Assembly (NCBI GenBank): GCA_016794525.1
Contig: JAEUJY010000166.1
Coordinates: forward strand, 1 to 64,000
Length of the DNA: 64,000 nt
Direction of reading: 5' to 3'
DNA from: Myxococcales bacterium
Lineage (GTDB): Bacteria; Myxococcota_A; Polyangia; Haliangiales; Haliangiaceae
Both the position numbers and the translations under genes were made by a program. Positions within the stretch are counted from its first letter, which is position 1, and each line of letters begins with the position of its first letter. This document shows, one piece after another, positions 13,226 to 21,494 of this stretch. The notes beneath the pieces were generated by a model, which saw only the letters and a program-made list of their open reading frames with translations, ran no database searches and was not told the origin of the DNA.

Positions 13226-16200
13226 TCAGGCGCCGAGGAGGCGGAGCAGGGCGACCGGGGCGACGGCGCCGCGGCGCTGCAGCTCGGCGACGACGGCGGC
13301 GTGCTCGGCCGCGCCGGCGGTGCCGCCGACGAGGGTGGCGACGCGGGCGCGGGCGGCGAGCGCGAACCCGGCCATGCCGGCGGCGGTGGCGGCGCGGCCG
13401 GCCTCGACGTAGGCGGCGCGGGCGCGGGCGGGCTCGTCGCGTAGCTCGGCGAGGTGACCGCGGGCCAGCGCGGCGAGCGGGACGGCCCAGTCGGCGCCCT
13501 CGCGCTCGACCCGCTGCACGCAGTCCTGCGCGACCCGCAGGCGCGCCGCGCGATCGTGGGGCTCGGCGGCGGCCGCCGCCAGCGCGGCGCGGGCGTGCAG
13601 CAGGTCGGCCTCGACGCGGGTGAGCTGCAGGCCGATCAGCGGCGACCGCCACAGCCGCGGCCAGGTGGCGTCGATCGTCGCCAGCGCCCGCGCCGCGTCG
13701 CCGCGGTACAGGTCGACGCTGGCGGCGGCGACGGTCCGGAAGTAGTGGTGGAGGTGGAACTCGTCGTCGTCGGTGCGGTGGTCGAAGCCGGCGTGGGCCA
13801 TCGCCAGCGCGTCGGCCGGGCGATCGACGATCAGCCAGTACAGGTTGCCACGGCCGGTGCGCAGCCCGCCCAGCGCGTGGACGTCGCCGAGCTCTTCGGC
13901 CTCGGCCAGCTGGCGCGGGATCGACGCGATCAGCCCGGCGAGGTCGCCGAGGTACCAGCGGGCGGCGGGCTGGAAGAACTGCACGAGGTTGAGCGCCCAG
14001 CGCACGCCGACGTAGTCGCGCTGCTGCGCCTCGGCGGCGCGCAGCCGGCGATCGGCCTCGCGCCAGCGCCCGGCCAGGGCGGCGGCGACGCCGGCGCCGC
14101 CCTCGAGCAGCGCGGTCAGCTCGGGCCGGCCGAGCTCCTCGCACAGCGCCCGGGCCGCGGCCTCGACCGCCGCGGTGGCGGCCGCGGTCTTGGTGCCGCC
14201 GTGGGCGGTGTGGCCGATCTCGATGCACAGCACGCGCGCCACCCGCTCGGGATCGCCGAGCGCGCGCGCGGCGTCGAGCAGGTGCAGCTGCGGCACCCGG
14301 GCCAGCGCCGGGTTGACGTACGCCAGGCCGGCGGTCAACGACCACAGCGTGTCGACGACGGCGCGCTCGCGGTCGGTGGCCTGCTCGGGCGGGCGCCGGG
14401 TGAAGCCGAAGCCGCGGACCCGGCGGGCCAGCCCCTCGGCGAGCAGCTTGGCCGCGCCGGCGGTGCGGCCGAGCGTGACGCCGGCGCCGAGCTCGTCGCA
14501 CAGCGCCTGCGCGTCGGCCAGGCCGCGCCGCAGGTCGCCGGTGCGCAGCGCGTACTCGATCTGCATGCGCCGCAGCGCGATGGCCTCGTCGGGGCTGGCG
14601 TCGGGCAGCGCCGCCGCCAGCGTCGCCAGCGCCGCCTCGAGGCGCCCGACGTTGGCGTGGCACTCGGCCTGCCGGCGGCGCAGCGCGACCCGGTGGGCCG
14701 GCGTCGCCGCGCCGGCCAGCGCGACCTCGTACATCGCCGCGGCGTGGCGGAACGCGAGGCTGGCCTCGGCCGCCACCGCGGCGCGCTCGGCGTGGGGCGC
14801 GGCGCGGGCCGGCTCGCCGGCGGCGCGCCAGTGCGCGACCAGCTCGTCGAGCGGCGGCGCCGGCAGCCGCTCCAGCTCGGCGGCGAGCCGGGCGTGCAGC
14901 GCGGCGGCGGCGGCGGGCGGCAGCGACGCCAGCACCGCGGCGCGGATGCGATCGTGGTACGGCTCGACGTACCACTCGCCGTGGGCCTTGCCGCCCACCA
15001 GCAGCCGCTCGCTGCACAGCCGGGTCAGCGCGGCCAGCCCGTCGCCCAGCCCGGCGGCGGCGATCGCGAACGGCAGCGGCCGCGCCGCCACCGCCGCCAG
15101 CGCCAGCAGCGCCCGGGCGTCGTCGTCGAGCGCGGCCAGCCGGCGGGCCAGCACCTGCTCGAGGCTGGCCGGCGCGGCCGCGGCGTCGGCGGCGCGGTGG
15201 CGGGCCAGCTCGACCAGCAGGAAAGGCGTGCCCGCGGCCTCGTCGTCGAGGGCGGCGTCGTCGGCGCCGATCGCCGCGCGCAGCGCGTGGGCCGCGGCGG
15301 GATCGAGCGGGCCGACCGCGAGATCGCGGACGACGATCGGCGAGCGGCCGCTGGGCTGGGCGACGTCGGTCAGCCGCACCGTCGGTGTCCCCGCGTCGGT
15401 GGGCAGCGCCGCGGCGGGGGTGTCGAGCGGCCGCGACGACAGCACGAACAGCGCGCCGGTGCCGACGAAGTAGCGCACCAGCTCGCCGAGCAGGCCGGCG
15501 GTGTCGGCGTTGCTCCACTGCATGTCGTCGAGGAAGACCACCGGCAGGCGATCGCCGGCCAGCTGCTGGATCAGCTCGGCGCACGCGGTCACGGCGCGCC
15601 GCCGCAGCTCGGCCGGATCGGCCGGCACCCGCCCCAGCGCGCGCGCGGTCGCGACCGCCTGCACCCGGGCCAGCGCCGGGAACAGCCGGGCCAGCGCGGC
15701 GACGTCCCGCGGCATCAGCGCCGCCGCGCGATCGGCCGGCAGCGCGGCCAGCGCGTTGGCGAGCGCGTCGACCATCGTCTCGATGGCCGGGTAGGGCACG
15801 GTCTCGCGCTGGTGACAGCGGCCGGTCAGCGCCAGCGCGGCGCCCGGCTCGAGGCCGGCGAGGTAGTGGCGCACCAACGCGGTCTTGCCGATGCCGGAGG
15901 CGCCGGTCATCGACACGACGACGCTGTCGCCGTCGCGCGCGGTGGCGAACGCCGCGGCCAGCGCGGCCAGCTCGGCGCCGCGGCCGACGAACGGCAGCGC
16001 CGCGGTGCGCTCGGCCACCGCGCGGGTGGCCGACGTCGGCTGGCGCCCCAGCGCCGCCAGCAGCACCGCGCCGTCGCCGCGGCGCGCCGGATCGCGATCG
16101 AGCAGCCGCGTGCAGGCGTGGTCGAGCTCGGGCGGCACCGTCGGCACCAGCGCGCGCGGCGGCGGCGGATCCTCGGCGACCCGGCGCGCCATCACCTGAT

Positions 16201-16942
16201 CGCGGGTGCCGCGGAACGGGCGCACGCCGGTGAGCGCCTCGTACAGCATGACGCCGACGCTGTACCAGTCGGCGGCGGCGGTCAGCGGCCGATCGAGCAC
16301 CTGCTCGGGCGACATGTAGCCGGGGGTGCCGACCGCCGACGCCTCGTGGGTGCGCTCGGGATCGCCGCCGTGGCGGACGTCGCCGCTGATCAGCCCGAAG
16401 TCGAGCACGACCACCCGGCCGGCGGCGGTGACCAGCACGTTGGACGGCTTGAGGTCGCGGTGGACCTTGCCGGTGGCGTGGATCGCGGCGACCGCGTCGG
16501 CCAGCTGGAAGAACCGATCGCGCACGCGCTCGAGATCGGCCGGGCGGGCCTCGCTCGGCGGCGGCGCGGTGTCGCCGCGGCCGGCGCCGCTGCCCAGGCG
16601 CAGGCCGAGGTGCTCGTGGATCGGCACGCCCGCGACCAGCTCCATCGTGAACCACGGCGGATCGTCGGTGAGGAACAGCTCGTAGAGCCGCACCAGGTTG
16701 GGGTGGACGACGTCGCGCAGCGTGCGGAACTCGCGCTTGAAGCGGTACAGCGCGGTGGTGTCGTGGTCGGCGCTCAGGACCTTCAGCGCCACCTCGCGGC
16801 CGAGCACCATGTCGAGCGCGCGGTAGACCGTGCCGTGGGCGCCCTGGCCGAGCCGGCCGAGCACGAAGAAGCGATCGGGCGCCTCCCACGCCGGGCTGGC
16901 CGGGGCGCGCTGCGGCTCGGAACCGTCCCCCCGGCTCGACAT
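13226..16942 (-). CDS. Ser/Thr protein kinase fused to an AAA-type ATPase and helical repeats (PknK-like)
   Basis: 1238 residues. Hanks kinase domain at about 25-300: glycine loop LGRLGQGAHG, lysine in VALKVL (~54), catalytic loop HRDLKPSNVLV (~160), DFGLIS and a YMSPEQV activation segment. Next comes an AAA/STAND-like ATPase with P-loop GASGIGKTALVRHY (~344-357) and Walker B LPVVFLDDMQW (~467). Then about 600 residues of Ala/Leu-rich helical repeats, probably TPR-like. No membrane helix is seen, so it is likely cytoplasmic. This architecture is shared with PknK-type regulators, which couple phosphorylation to ligand-gated assembly. The stop converges on the LolC/E-like gene; the lipoprotein gene upstream ends 54 bases before its start. 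Confidence 0.9.
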   Translation of the reverse strand: MSSRGDGSEPQRAPASPAWEAPDRFFVLGRLGQGAHGTVYRALDMVLGREVALKVLSADHDTTALYRFKREFRTLRDVVHPNLVRLYELFLTDDPPWFTMELVAGVPIHEHLGLRLGSGAGRGDTAPPPSEARPADLERVRDRFFQLADAVAAIHATGKVHRDLKPSNVLVTAAGRVVVLDFGLISGDVRHGGDPERTHEASAVGTPGYMSPEQVLDRPLTAAADWYSVGVMLYEALTGVRPFRGTRDQVMARRVAEDPPPPRALVPTVPPELDHACTRLLDRDPARRGDGAVLLAALGRQPTSATRAVAERTAALPFVGRGAELAALAAAFATARDGDSVVVSMTGASGIGKTALVRHYLAGLEPGAALALTGRCHQRETVPYPAIETMVDALANALAALPADRAAALMPRDVAALARLFPALARVQAVATARALGRVPADPAELRRRAVTACAELIQQLAGDRLPVVFLDDMQWSNADTAGLLGELVRYFVGTGALFVLSSRPLDTPAAALPTDAGTPTVRLTDVAQPSGRSPIVVRDLAVGPLDPAAAHALRAAIGADDAALDDEAAGTPFLLVELARHRAADAAAAPASLEQVLARRLAALDDDARALLALAAVAARPLPFAIAAAGLGDGLAALTRLCSERLLVGGKAHGEWYVEPYHDRIRAAVLASLPPAAAAALHARLAAELERLPAPPLDELVAHWRAAGEPARAAPHAERAAVAAEASLAFRHAAAMYEVALAGAATPAHRVALRRRQAECHANVGRLEAALATLAAALPDASPDEAIALRRMQIEYALRTGDLRRGLADAQALCDELGAGVTLGRTAGAAKLLAEGLARRVRGFGFTRRPPEQATDRERAVVDTLWSLTAGLAYVNPALARVPQLHLLDAARALGDPERVARVLCIEIGHTAHGGTKTAAATAAVEAAARALCEELGRPELTALLEGGAGVAAALAGRWREADRRLRAAEAQQRDYVGVRWALNLVQFFQPAARWYLGDLAGLIASIPRQLAEAEELGDVHALGGLRTGRGNLYWLIVDRPADALAMAHAGFDHRTDDDEFHLHHYFRTVAAASVDLYRGDAARALATIDATWPRLWRSPLIGLQLTRVEADLLHARAALAAAAAEPHDRAARLRVAQDCVQRVEREGADWAVPLAALARGHLAELRDEPARARAAYVEAGRAATAAGMAGFALAARARVATLVGGTAGAAEHAAVVAELQRRGAVAPVALLRLLGA

Positions 16943-16996: not shown

Positions 16997-17641
16997 TCAG
17001 GTGCCAGGGGCGACGATCGCCTCGGCGCCGACCACCGCCAGCGACACGTCGCGCAGCGCCGAGGTCGCGGTGATGATCATCGCGGTGCCGTCGATGTGGG
17101 CGGCCAGGTCGGCGCGCAGCGCGCCGGTGGCGTCGGCGGTGACCGCGACGGCGAACCGGGTGCGCGGCGCCTTGCGCAGCCCGAGCGGCACGTGGTCGCC
17201 GTCGGCGTCGACCAGCGACCAGTCGAGGATCAGGTCGGCCTGGCCGGTGCCGACCAGCGCGTCGCCGGGGACCTCGTCGGGCAGCGCCACCGCGAGCTGG
17301 GTGCCCAGGCGCAGCACCAGGTCGGTGAAGCGCACCGGGCGGTCGGCGATCATGCCGGCGGGCAGCGTGACGTCGGCCAGCGGCAAGGTCAGGTCCTCGA
17401 CCAGCAGGTAGCCGTCGGCGGTGGTGCGCACGACAACCTGGCCGCCGGTGATCGCCGGCGCGATCGCGAGCGCGTGGCCGCTGGCCACGGCGGTGGCGTC
17501 GAGGTCGCTGTCGGTGGTCACGGCCAGCTGGGCGCGATCGGCGAGGCGATCGACCAGCGGGACCGGGGCGCCGGCGGGGTCGAAGCCGCAGGCGGCGGTG
17601 GCGGCGAGCGCGGCGGCGGTGGCGGCGAGGGGGAGGTTCAT
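16997..17641 (-). CDS. Predicted lipoprotein of unknown function
   Basis: 214 residues from ATG 17641. The N-terminus MNLPLAATAAALAATAAC is a lipoprotein signal with the modified cysteine at 18. The mature part is rich in beta strands and acidic residues (VTTDSDLDATAVASGHALAI, LILDWSLVDADGDHVPLG), resembling immunoglobulin-like or lipid-binding sandwich domains, but no family was recognised. The frame stays open to 17743 through an AT-rich stretch. That extension has no lipobox and runs over a likely promoter, so the internal ATG is preferred. It may form an operon with the kinase gene downstream. Confidence 0.65.
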   Translation of the reverse strand: MNLPLAATAAALAATAACGFDPAGAPVPLVDRLADRAQLAVTTDSDLDATAVASGHALAIAPAITGGQVVVRTTADGYLLVEDLTLPLADVTLPAGMIADRPVRFTDLVLRLGTQLAVALPDEVPGDALVGTGQADLILDWSLVDADGDHVPLGLRKAPRTRFAVAVTADATGALRADLAAHIDGTAMIITATSALRDVSLAVVGAEAIVAPGT

Positions 17642-17706
17642 GGCCCCAGTCGTAGTCACCACGGCGCGGCCGGCAACCGCCCGGCTCGACGTGAATCTGC
17701 AACTTG

Positions 17707-17721
17707 TTGACTTTGGGTCAA
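17707..17721. promoter_or_regulatory. TTGAC-N5-GTCAA palindrome in an AT-rich divergent promoter region
   Basis: The 245-base gap between the lipoprotein gene and the YcaO gene contains an AT-rich island (about 17700-17745) unlike its surroundings. It holds TTGAC (17707-17711) and GTCAA (17717-17721), inverted around five bases, the form expected of a dimeric repressor or activator site. TTGACT also resembles a -35 box, but no well-spaced -10 box was found on the plus strand. It could control the lipoprotein-kinase genes, the YcaO-TfuA genes, or both. Confidence 0.4.
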
Positions 17722-17886
17722 TAAAAGATGAAGAAAGATTCATGAATGCCGGTCGTCCGGGCCGCGCCCGAAGGCGCTTCGTAGCGGCGCGTACGCCGCG
17801 GCGCCTGGGCGATCGCCGCCGCCGGCGCGCCGATCGGCCGCGCGCGCGATCGACTTGCCGCCGCGCTGGCCCTACTGTGCGCCGCC

Positions 17887-19071
17887 GTGATCGCGACCGT
17901 CTTCGGTGAGCCGCTGGCCGCGCCCGTGCGCGCGCGCACCGGCACGCTGCGCGCCGCGACCCTCGCCGCGACGTGGCGGCGGTTCGCGCCGGTGGCGCCG
18001 CGGATCGGGCTCACGCGGCTGGCCGACCTGACCGACCTCGACGCGCTCGGCGTGCCGGTGTGGGCGGCGATCCGCCCGATGGGGCGCTCGCTGTCGTCGG
18101 CGCAGGGCAAGGGCGTGACGTCGCTCGCGGCCAAGGTGTCGGCGCTGATGGAGAGCATCGAGACCTGGCACGCCGAGCAGCGCCGGCCCGATCGGCTGGC
18201 CAGCGCGCGGGCGCTGGGCGCGGCGACGATCGCGCGGGCGCGGGCGCTGCCGCGGCACCCGCGGCGGTTCGCCGTCGACGCGGTGCGGCCGTGGGTGCGC
18301 GGCGTCGCGCTGCCGAGCGGCCGCCCGGCGTGGATCCCGTGGGAGGCGGTGACGCTCGACACCGTCGCGGCCGCCGCCGCGCCGCCGCTGTTCGACGTGT
18401 CGTCCAACGGCCTGGCCTCGGGCAACACGCTCGGCGAGGCGATCGTCCACGGCCTGAGCGAGGTGATCGAGCGCGACGCCGAGGCCACGTGGCGGCTGAC
18501 CGGCCACGATCGCCGGGTCGTCCTCGACACGATCGCCGATCGCGCGGTGCGCGGGCTGATCGATCGCGTCACCGGGGCCGGCGCGCGGCTGTGGCTGTGG
18601 GACCTGACCTCCGACGTCGGCGTGCCGGTGTTCGGCTGCGGGCTGATGCACGATCCGGCCGAGCCGACCTGGCGCGCGGTCGGCTTCTACCAGGGCTTCG
18701 GCTGCCACCTCGACCCGGTCATCGCGATGGCGCGGGCGATCACCGAGGCGGTGCAGACCCGGATGACGTACATCGCCGGCGCCCGCGACGACTTCTTCCC
18801 GCACGACTACCGCCGCGCCACCGATCGCGTGGTGCTGCGGCGGATCTGGCGGCGCTACGCGGCGCCGCCCGACGAGTCGATCGACGCCCGCGCCTACGCC
18901 CGCCCGCGGATCGCCGACCTCGGCGCCGCGCTGGCGACGCTGCTCGACGCGCTCGCCGCCGCCGGCAGCCCCGAGGTGCTGGTCGCCGATCTGCGGCAGC
19001 CGGGCTTCGGCGTGCCGGTGGTCAAGGTGCTGGTGCCGGGGCGCGCGACGGCGCTCGAGGGGCTGGGCTGA
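17887..19071 (+). CDS. ycaO: YcaO-family cyclodehydratase/thioamidation ATPase
   Basis: 394 residues, GTG start. YcaO enzymes use ATP to activate backbone amides, forming azolines or, with TfuA, thioamides. The glutamate-rich ATP site is visible as ALMESIETWHAE (about 86-97), followed by SSNGLASGNTLGEAIVHGLS and EVIERDAEATW (about 175-205). The C-terminus ends in VPVVKVLVPGRATALEGLG and lacks the PxPxP tail of azoline-forming YcaOs, which fits a thioamide or non-azole role. Its stop overlaps the TfuA start by one base. No precursor peptide, ThiF/E1-like partner or protease gene is next to it, so the substrate must be encoded elsewhere or be a housekeeping protein. Confidence 0.92.
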   Translation: MIATVFGEPLAAPVRARTGTLRAATLAATWRRFAPVAPRIGLTRLADLTDLDALGVPVWAAIRPMGRSLSSAQGKGVTSLAAKVSALMESIETWHAEQRRPDRLASARALGAATIARARALPRHPRRFAVDAVRPWVRGVALPSGRPAWIPWEAVTLDTVAAAAAPPLFDVSSNGLASGNTLGEAIVHGLSEVIERDAEATWRLTGHDRRVVLDTIADRAVRGLIDRVTGAGARLWLWDLTSDVGVPVFGCGLMHDPAEPTWRAVGFYQGFGCHLDPVIAMARAITEAVQTRMTYIAGARDDFFPHDYRRATDRVVLRRIWRRYAAPPDESIDARAYARPRIADLGAALATLLDALAAAGSPEVLVADLRQPGFGVPVVKVLVPGRATALEGLG

Positions 19072-19814
19072 TGGCGCGGCTGATGGCGCGGCGCGCCGGC
19101 GGCACGATCGTCTTCCTCGGCCCGAGCCTGCCGGCGGCCGAGGCGCGCGCGCGGCTGCCCGGCGCCGAGCTGGCGCCGCCGGTGGCGGTGCTCGACGTGG
19201 CGCGCCTGCTGCGGCGCCGCCAGCCGGCGCGGCTGGCGATCGTCGACGGCTACTTCGAGCGCATGGCCGCGGTGTGGCACAAGGAGCTCCTGCTCGCGCT
19301 CGAGCTGGGCGTCGAGGTGTGGGGCGCGGCGTCGATGGGCGCGCTGCGCGCCGCCGAGCTCGATCGCCACGGCATGCGCGGCGTCGGCGCGATCTACCAG
19401 GCCTACCGGCGCGGCCGGCTGACCAGCGACGCCGAGGTCGCGGTGGCGCACCTGCCCGCCGAGGGCGGCTACCTGGCGGTGTCGGTGCCGCTGGTCAACG
19501 TGCGCGCGCAGGTCGCGCGGGCCCGGACCGCGCGGGTGCTCGACGCCGCGACCGCGCGCGCGACGATCGCCGCCGCCGCGGCGGTGCCGTACTGGGATCG
19601 CACCTGGGACGCGGTCGACGCCGCGCTGCCGGCGGCGACGCGGGCGCGGTTCGCGGCGTGGCGCGCGGCGCACCCGTTCGATCAGAAGGCCGCCGACGCG
19701 CGCGCGCTGCTCGACGCGCTGGCCGCGACGCCGCCGACGCCGCCGGCCGCGGCGCCGGTGCCGCGGACGTGGGCGTTCACGCAGCTGCTGGCGCTCGCCG
19801 CGCGCCGCCGCTAG
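19071..19814 (+). CDS. tfuA: TfuA-like protein, YcaO partner
   Basis: 247 residues, start ATG 19071 sharing one base with the YcaO stop. The family core is visible: IVFLGPSLPAAEARARLPGA at the N-terminus, LAIVDGYFERMAAVWHKELL and the diagnostic GVEVWGAASMGALRAAELD (about 80-98). TfuA proteins partner with YcaO; in archaeal McrA and in thioviridamide-type RiPPs the pair installs thioamides, TfuA probably delivering sulfide. The last ~50 residues are Ala/Pro-rich and less conserved. It converges with the kinase gene at 19824 with nine bases between stops. Confidence 0.9.
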   Translation: MARLMARRAGGTIVFLGPSLPAAEARARLPGAELAPPVAVLDVARLLRRRQPARLAIVDGYFERMAAVWHKELLLALELGVEVWGAASMGALRAAELDRHGMRGVGAIYQAYRRGRLTSDAEVAVAHLPAEGGYLAVSVPLVNVRAQVARARTARVLDAATARATIAAAAAVPYWDRTWDAVDAALPAATRARFAAWRAAHPFDQKAADARALLDALAATPPTPPAAAPVPRTWAFTQLLALAARRR

Positions 19815-19823
19815 GGCGCGCGG

Positions 19824-21494
19824 CTACAGCTCGATGCCCGCGGCCTTGCAGGCGCGCTTGGCCTGGGCCTTGAGCCGCGGCTTCGAGACGCTGCGCAGCG
19901 CGGCCTTGGCGGCGCCGAGATCCTGGTTCTGGCAGTAGGCCTCGGCGCGGATCGCGAACAACACCTGCGCCGTCGGGAACTTGTTGAGCGCGGCGCGCGT
20001 GACCTGCAGCGCGGCGTCGGGGTCGCCGGCGCGCAGCGCGGCGCGGGCCTCGGCCGCCGCGGCGCGCACGTCGGGCGGGTCGGCGTCCTCGGCGGGCTCG
20101 TCGGCGCCGGCGTCGACGCGCGGCGTGGCCGGCCGGGCGTCGGTGGGGCGGGCGGCGCGGGCGTCGCTGGGCGCGGCGGCGTCGGTGGGCGCGGCGCCGG
20201 CGTCGACGAGGTCCGGCGGCGGCACCACCACCGCGCCGTCGATCGCAGGCGCGGTCGGCGCGGCGTCGACCGGCGCGCTGGCCACCACCGCGGCGTCGAT
20301 CGCGGTCGCGGGCGACGGCGTGGTCGGCTTGCCGCCGCCGCCGCCGAGCACCACCACCGCGGCCACCGCCGCGCCGGCGAGCACCACCACCGCGCCGACG
20401 ATCGCGCCGGTGCGCTTCTTCGGCGGCGTCGCCAGCGCCGGCGCCGAGGCCACGGTCTGCGCCGACGCCACCGGCCCGGCCTTGAGCGCCTCGCGGGCCT
20501 GGCTGGCCAGCGCGCTGCCGTGATCGCCCGAGCCCACGGTCTGCGCGAACGCGTCCTGGGTGCTCTGCTTGGTCGGCGTGGCCGGCCCCACCGCCGGCCG
20601 CACGTTGGTCGGGATCGGCGCGCGGCCGGTGGCCAGCGGCGAGCCGGTCAGCGCCTCGACGAACGCCGCGACGTCGGGCCAGCGCTCCTCCGGCTTCTTG
20701 GCCAGCGCGCGGTCGACCGCGGCGACGGCCGCCGCCGGGACGCCGGGCGCCAGGCTCGCCACCGACGGCGCCGGGTCGAACACCACCTTGAACACCACCT
20801 CGGGGATGGTGGCGCCGCCGAACGCCGGCTGGCCGGTGAGCATCTCGTACACCACCGCCCCGAGCGCGAAGACGTCGGTGCGGCCGTCGACCTGATCGTG
20901 GCGGCCGGTGGCCTGCTCGGGCGCCATGTACTGCGGCGTGCCCAGCATCTGCGTGTCCTGGGTCTTCACCGTGTTCGAGCCGTGGATCTTCGAGATGCCG
21001 AAGTCGAGCACCTTGGCCCGCGGCGGGCCCTCGTCCTGCGGCAGGAGGAAGATGTTGGCGGGCTTGAGATCGCGGTGGACGATGCCCTCGCGGTGCGCCG
21101 CGGCCAGCGCCGCGCCGACCTGGCGGATGATCGGCGCGACCTCGTCGAGCGTCATCGGCCCGCGCCGCAGCCGATCGGCCAGCGACTCGCCGACCAGGAG
21201 CTCGAGCACGAGGTACGGCGTGCCGTCGGGGAGCTGGTTCCAGTCGTGGACCTCGACGATGTTCGGGTGGCCCAGCCGCGACGCGATCTCGGCCTCGCGG
21301 CGGAACCGCGCCAGCGACTCGGCGTCGGCGACGTCGGGGTGGAGGACCTTGATCGCGACCTTCTTGCCCGGCAGCCGGACGTGGCTGGCCACGAACACCG
21401 CGCCCATCCCGCCCCGGCCCAGCAGCCCCTCGACCGTGTAGGTCTCCGCGATCACGGAGCCCACATCGAGGGCCTGGGTCGGTGAATGCGCCAT
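19824..21494 (-). CDS. Transmembrane Ser/Thr protein kinase with C-terminal repeat domain
   Basis: 556 residues from ATG 21494. N-terminal kinase domain: LLGRGGMGAVF, VAIKVL (~46), HRDLKPANIFLL (~138), DFGISK, and YMAPEQATG in the activation segment. A Pro/Thr linker leads to one membrane helix (TGAIVGAVVVLAGAAVAAVVV, about 361-383). Outside is an Asp/Ala/Pro-rich stalk and a small TPR-like domain (about 480-556). This is the PknB-like layout typical of myxobacteria; the external repeats probably sense or bind a partner. The start faces the exported-protein gene at 21522 with only 27 bases between, so the two promoters must overlap the coding starts. Confidence 0.92.
   Translation of the reverse strand: MAHSPTQALDVGSVIAETYTVEGLLGRGGMGAVFVASHVRLPGKKVAIKVLHPDVADAESLARFRREAEIASRLGHPNIVEVHDWNQLPDGTPYLVLELLVGESLADRLRRGPMTLDEVAPIIRQVGAALAAAHREGIVHRDLKPANIFLLPQDEGPPRAKVLDFGISKIHGSNTVKTQDTQMLGTPQYMAPEQATGRHDQVDGRTDVFALGAVVYEMLTGQPAFGGATIPEVVFKVVFDPAPSVASLAPGVPAAAVAAVDRALAKKPEERWPDVAAFVEALTGSPLATGRAPIPTNVRPAVGPATPTKQSTQDAFAQTVGSGDHGSALASQAREALKAGPVASAQTVASAPALATPPKKRTGAIVGAVVVLAGAAVAAVVVLGGGGGKPTTPSPATAIDAAVVASAPVDAAPTAPAIDGAVVVPPPDLVDAGAAPTDAAAPSDARAARPTDARPATPRVDAGADEPAEDADPPDVRAAAAEARAALRAGDPDAALQVTRAALNKFPTAQVLFAIRAEAYCQNQDLGAAKAALRSVSKPRLKAQAKRACKAAGIEL

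Follow-up and report, generated by a model that had tools for sequence, protein, structure and literature searches.

A YcaO-TfuA gene pair of the Kofleriaceae without a substrate gene in cis and its putative role in thioamidation

The adjacent ycaO and tfuA genes found in a 64,000-nucleotide stretch of myxobacterial DNA (the window) appear to encode a working thioamide-forming system that belongs to a clade specific to the Kofleriaceae, and whose substrate, most likely an endogenous protein, would be encoded elsewhere in the genome; on the comparisons summarized below, this explanation is given about an even chance of being correct. The substrate is putatively placed in trans because the pair changes its neighbours among related genomes and no substrate gene accompanies it in cis. 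By analogy with characterised members of the two families, TfuA, a hydrolase that takes sulfide from ThiS-like carriers (PMC13063428), would release sulfide from a thiocarboxylated carrier of this kind, YcaO would activate a backbone amide of the target with ATP and Mg2+, and attack of the sulfide on the activated amide would convert C=O to C=S.

The ycaO gene (17887-19071, plus strand; start GTG at 17887, stop TGA at 19071) encodes a 394-residue TfuA-associated, thioamide-type YcaO with a pI of 10.28. Assignment to the YcaO superfamily follows from a match over nearly the whole Pfam domain (PF02624, 256 bits, model positions 1-323 of 325) together with the motifs GKG (residues 74-76), SALMESIE (85-92), SSNGLASGN (172-180), GLSEVIERD (189-197) and AITEAVQTR (284-292), which we take to be those of the ATP/Mg site; all five are present and are kept in the aligned orthologues. 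MJ1094 (structure 6pe3) is a solved relative (E=2.6e-28). The protein ends in ...VKVLVPGRATALEGLG, its last residues reading ...GRATALEGLG, and lacks PxPxP. The tfuA gene (19071-19814, plus strand) overlaps the ycaO stop by its ATG at 19071 (TGATG) and encodes 247 residues with a pI of 11.3 and the C-terminus PRTWAFTQL; its product is placed in the TfuA family by a match to the full Pfam model (PF07812, 144 bits, positions 1-119 of 119) as well as by adjacency to YcaO, and the TfuA-domain structure 6xp8 is a solved relative (E=1.3e-26). Genes were called with a home-made codon-usage caller, and both members of the pair are judged to be coding since their GC3 of 0.98-0.99 is the same as that of neighbour genes. 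The genome contains one full YcaO and one TfuA, that of the window, with no second TfuA found in it. A second YcaO-like ORF (L002, on contig C93 of genome G000) is partial, short and divergent. PADLOC returned no match for the pair, and its kinase matches only mirror kinase domains.

Among NCBIfam models, YcaO scores highest with that of the McrA-glycine thioamidation enzyme, and the difference between 208.6 bits for this model (methan_mark_1) and 122.1 bits for the SagD-type model favours predicted thioamidation over azoline formation. The missing PxPxP tail and the absence of an E1-like or RRE partner among the neighbour genes likewise do not fit an azoline-forming cyclodehydratase. An earlier, sequence-only reading of this DNA as a thioamide-type pair is supported by the best matches to McrA-thioamidation models. 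YcaO-TfuA thioamidates McrA in Methanosarcina acetivorans (PMC5589413), and the McrA pair (methan_mark_1/ThioGly_TfuA_rel) shares with the window pair adjacent overlapping genes of the same families, the best model match, the lack of a linked precursor and, as a candidate, a protein substrate. Unlike the McrA pair, the window pair is bacterial, falls below both equivalog cut-offs (TIGR03266, 208.6 vs 365 bits; NF033432, the McrA-type TfuA model, 173.8 vs 235.2 bits), has a basic TfuA with a PRTWA tail, and is patchy rather than near-universal in distribution; to our knowledge, McrA itself is not to be expected in a myxobacterium. The same two enzymes occur in the TfuA-type RiPP clusters of bacteria, including myxobacteria (Corallococcus is named), for which thioamidation is established (PMC8120280), but the window differs from such clusters in having no precursor peptide, protease or exporter gene, and a precursor peptide gene in cis is also missing from the orthologous loci. 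The E. coli YcaO, which thioamidates the ribosomal protein uL16 without TfuA (PMC13063428), resembles that of the window in having no linked substrate gene, its target being a bacterial protein encoded in trans, yet differs in its acidity, its TPR domain and the absence of a TfuA. The suggestion that a cellular protein target would be new for bacteria therefore has to be given up, although the E. coli precedent does not involve TfuA. Judged by these sequence features, the window pair is neither an azoline former nor an enzyme of the E. coli YcaO type, and in anatomy it resembles the McrA pair.

The region 16997-21494 holds only a lipoprotein-like gene, the pair and a Ser/Thr kinase gene; as had been read from the sequence before, the pair is not adjoined there by genes for a precursor, a leader-binding protein, a protease or an exporter. 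The lipoprotein-like gene (16997-17641, minus strand, 214 residues) lies upstream and is divergent to ycaO, and is not thought to encode the substrate. Its product is conserved in the nearest relative alone (56% identity), no homologue being found at the other pair loci. Downstream and convergent is the gene for a PknB-type Ser/Thr kinase (19824-21494, minus strand, 556 residues), shared only with the nearest relative, with synteny to its locus L061. Short ORFs of at least 22 codons' worth of residues (>=22 aa) were considered, and the 145 bp before ycaO contain one short candidate, a 55-residue Arg-rich ORF (17742-17909). It was rejected as a precursor since its GC by codon position (0.82/0.83/0.73), compared with a third-position value of 0.98 in local genes, indicates that it is not coding; in the 80%-identical relative it is not conserved, just the first few residues being common. 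A palindrome, TTGACTTTGGGTCAA (17707-17721, strandless), lies in the interval that separates ycaO from the divergent lipoprotein gene; this element, TTGACttNgGTCAA, sits directly upstream of the 145-bp stretch, occurs as a single copy in the window where 0 are expected, is also present in the 80%-identical relative (L031), and is possibly an operator or promoter element.

The closest match in the collection is a Kofleriaceae MAG that is syntenic on both sides of the pair, with 80% identity in YcaO and 73% in TfuA, on a par with neighbour genes. Orthologous pairs (53-80% identity) were found in 17 of 30 genomes of the Kofleriaceae (Myxococcota), distributed over the genus groups g1, g2, g236 and g238, and the 15 orthologues long enough to be placed in a tree form one clade with a support of 99. 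The remaining 13 genomes have no orthologous pair or only distant YcaO relatives, which means that the target can only be an optional or lineage-specific one. At every locus where the contig includes both ycaO and tfuA, the two genes lie side by side. Their surroundings vary by genus group: a lipoprotein gene and a PknB-type kinase gene in g1; a different lipoprotein gene in g2, where at least eight loci also have a kinase-AAA gene a short way downstream; and yet other neighbours in g236 and g238. No substrate gene in cis was found at the orthologous loci in searches that span the adjacent DNA and the profiles used, the genomes being mostly MAGs with broken contigs and several of the loci truncated; an all-against-all comparison gave no conserved short intergenic ORF, its matches being only Arg-rich low-complexity sequence. 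Two individual loci of the clade have features of their own. In the closest relative, a GAGACC/GAGGCC-type tandem repeat of ~0.5 kb (L031, 9440-10000), absent from the window, precedes ycaO and shares its reading frame. In another relative, genes for a BufB-like MNIO, a B12-binding radical SAM protein and a dioxygenase-like protein lie beside the orthologous pair (L143, the same as L032, 4887-11546), which suggests predicted RiPP tailoring in that relative; searches with TIGR04222 and MNIO gave no link of this context to the pair in other genomes.

The TfuA proteins of the clade are strongly basic, with a pI of 9.8-11.4 (median 10.9) at 15 Kofleriaceae loci as against a median of 5.9 for 46 other TfuA proteins, a contrast drawn from a small sample of loci fetched for the analysis. 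Near the C-terminus, 14 of the 15 have RTW, mostly as PRTWA, the exception being a truncated sequence. GC content by itself seems not to account for the basic character, since TfuA proteins of other myxobacteria (L070, L068 and L065) have a pI of 5.2-5.5, and in g2 the genomes with a basic TfuA have an acidic YcaO. The charge and the distinctive C-terminal motif together suggest a specialised partner or substrate, and the charge could match that of an acidic carrier or substrate. More specifically, it may tentatively be proposed, with clearly limited confidence, that the clade carries out a bacterial TfuA-dependent protein thioamidation in which a specialised basic TfuA serves an endogenous folded target that is neither a RiPP nor uL16.

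A somewhat doubtful but serious alternative is that the product of the pair is a thioamidated RiPP, the gene for its short precursor being elsewhere in the genome or having escaped recognition. RiPPs are the usual role of characterised bacterial TfuA pairs (PMC8120280), and the patchy distribution within the family, a point against an endogenous target, is more reminiscent of an accessory RiPP trait than of the essential modification of a protein. Many relatives outside the Kofleriaceae, moreover, adjoin likely precursors: repeat-core proteins with GGKQRFA, SGAKV, SRMAMA or NHN repeats in proteobacteria (Geminicoccaceae and other alphaproteobacteria) and actinobacteria, some of these loci also having ThiF- or MoaD-like genes on visual inspection of the sequences, and Nif11-like genes at L075 and L076. 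Against a RiPP, no precursor lies beside the orthologous Kofleriaceae loci examined, and neither an exporter nor a protease is present; as a rule, the precursor gene of a RiPP lies in cis. The sequence-only reading had named a precursor gene beside the pair in relatives as its own refutation; candidates for such genes are found in proteobacteria and in myxobacteria of other families, and none in the orthologous Kofleriaceae clade.

One of the repeat arrangements is that of the Geminicoccaceae (L042, 9488-9889, L045, L047, L050 and L058), where a protein of 112-133 residues with two to three GGKQRFA-type repeats is encoded directly upstream of ycaO-tfuA and is likely, from its sequence, a multi-core precursor. 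At L035 (12690-14884), L037 (12104-14175) and L038 (12515-14503), ycaO-tfuA is followed by a metallopeptidase-like gene and a gene for a repeat-tail protein (SGAKV or SRMAMA), after which comes a nucleotide cyclase-looking gene. Beside ycaO-tfuA in three families of the class (f3, f6 and f8) lies a gene of ~95-300 codons whose product ends in C-[YT]-x-x-N-[LP]; this family of small proteins has no name (loci L065, L066, L067, L068, L069, L070, L071, L072, L077, L079 and L158-L173), and the members scanned gave no Pfam or NCBIfam match. Profiles were built from pair-adjacent members and whole genomes then searched, and in this small sample 16 matches were obtained in 108 f3 genomes, all 16 lying <=3.5 kb from a TfuA gene (at one of these loci the motif is unreadable); among 377 Myxococcota, a narrower profile matched TfuA-bearing genomes only. 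Two subgroups match each other weakly (E=0.001, probability 21%), comparison with the Geminicoccaceae repeat precursors gave no significant profile similarity, and AlphaFold models (pLDDT 40-45) are too poor to use. The small protein is a candidate substrate or recognition factor at those loci. The profiles gave no match in the window's genome or in the Kofleriaceae genomes searched, and as a substrate of the window pair the protein was rejected for want of a homologue there.

A neighbour gene, i.e. that of a kinase-AAA protein or the divergent lipoprotein gene, is an improbable partner or substrate of the pair. A gene for a 1238-residue Ser/Thr kinase-AAA_16 protein, so assigned by domain matches, is at 13226-16942 (minus strand) of the window. 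Kinase genes that reach into an AAA region are found <=6 kb away in 19 of 49 myxobacterial YcaO/TfuA loci, and because the whole 9.8-Mb genome has only ~11 full-length kinase-AAA genes, one of them would fall within ~10 kb by chance as a ~1% event. The g2 kinase-AAA genes beside the pair form one clade, and a cis partner is possible in that group; those beside the pairs at L065, L068, L069, L070, L071, L072 and L077 encode a distinct family (337-2621 bits to the L070 protein, itself included), the AAA part of the L070 protein resembling the TOMM kinase/cyclase family. Despite this recurrence, the kinase-AAA protein was rejected as a partner in the window: the nearest relative, with its 80% identical YcaO and syntenic locus, has no such gene, and in the tree the window protein groups with an unlinked kinase (G331) outside the linked g2 clade, to which it is not orthologous. 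Its adjacency is probably coincidental. As to the lipoproteins, that of g2 occurs in 24 of 30 family genomes, several of them with no YcaO match, and so is not tied to the pair; the divergent lipoprotein of the window was rejected as a substrate, belonging to another, faster-evolving family.

That the two genes are a non-functional remnant in decay is very unlikely. There is no linked substrate, and several close genomes have lost the pair or lack it, but the frames are open, the motifs intact, the identity to the nearest relative as high as for neighbour genes in both proteins, and the two genes are kept together over four genus groups. Thioamidation of uL16 or another core translation protein, for which E. 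coli YcaO sets a bacterial precedent (PMC13063428), appears the least probable of all, given that the window YcaO scores only 33.7 bits with the E. coli-type model (NF040716, cut-off 700), has a pI of 10.3 compared with 4.4 reported for the E. coli enzyme, is paired with a TfuA whereas none lies near uL16-type YcaOs (PMC13063428), and is missing with its partner from many family genomes.

Assigned enzymes are known for just two protein thioamidations, those of McrA and uL16 (PMC13063428), and the existence in bacteria of a TfuA-YcaO clade that lacks a cis-encoded substrate suggests that there may be a third target. Such a target could be missed by standard proteomics, as its shift of +15.977 Da mimics oxidation. 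In other myxobacteria, the C-[YT]-x-x-N-[LP] family tied to YcaO-TfuA offers a directly testable set of candidate substrates.
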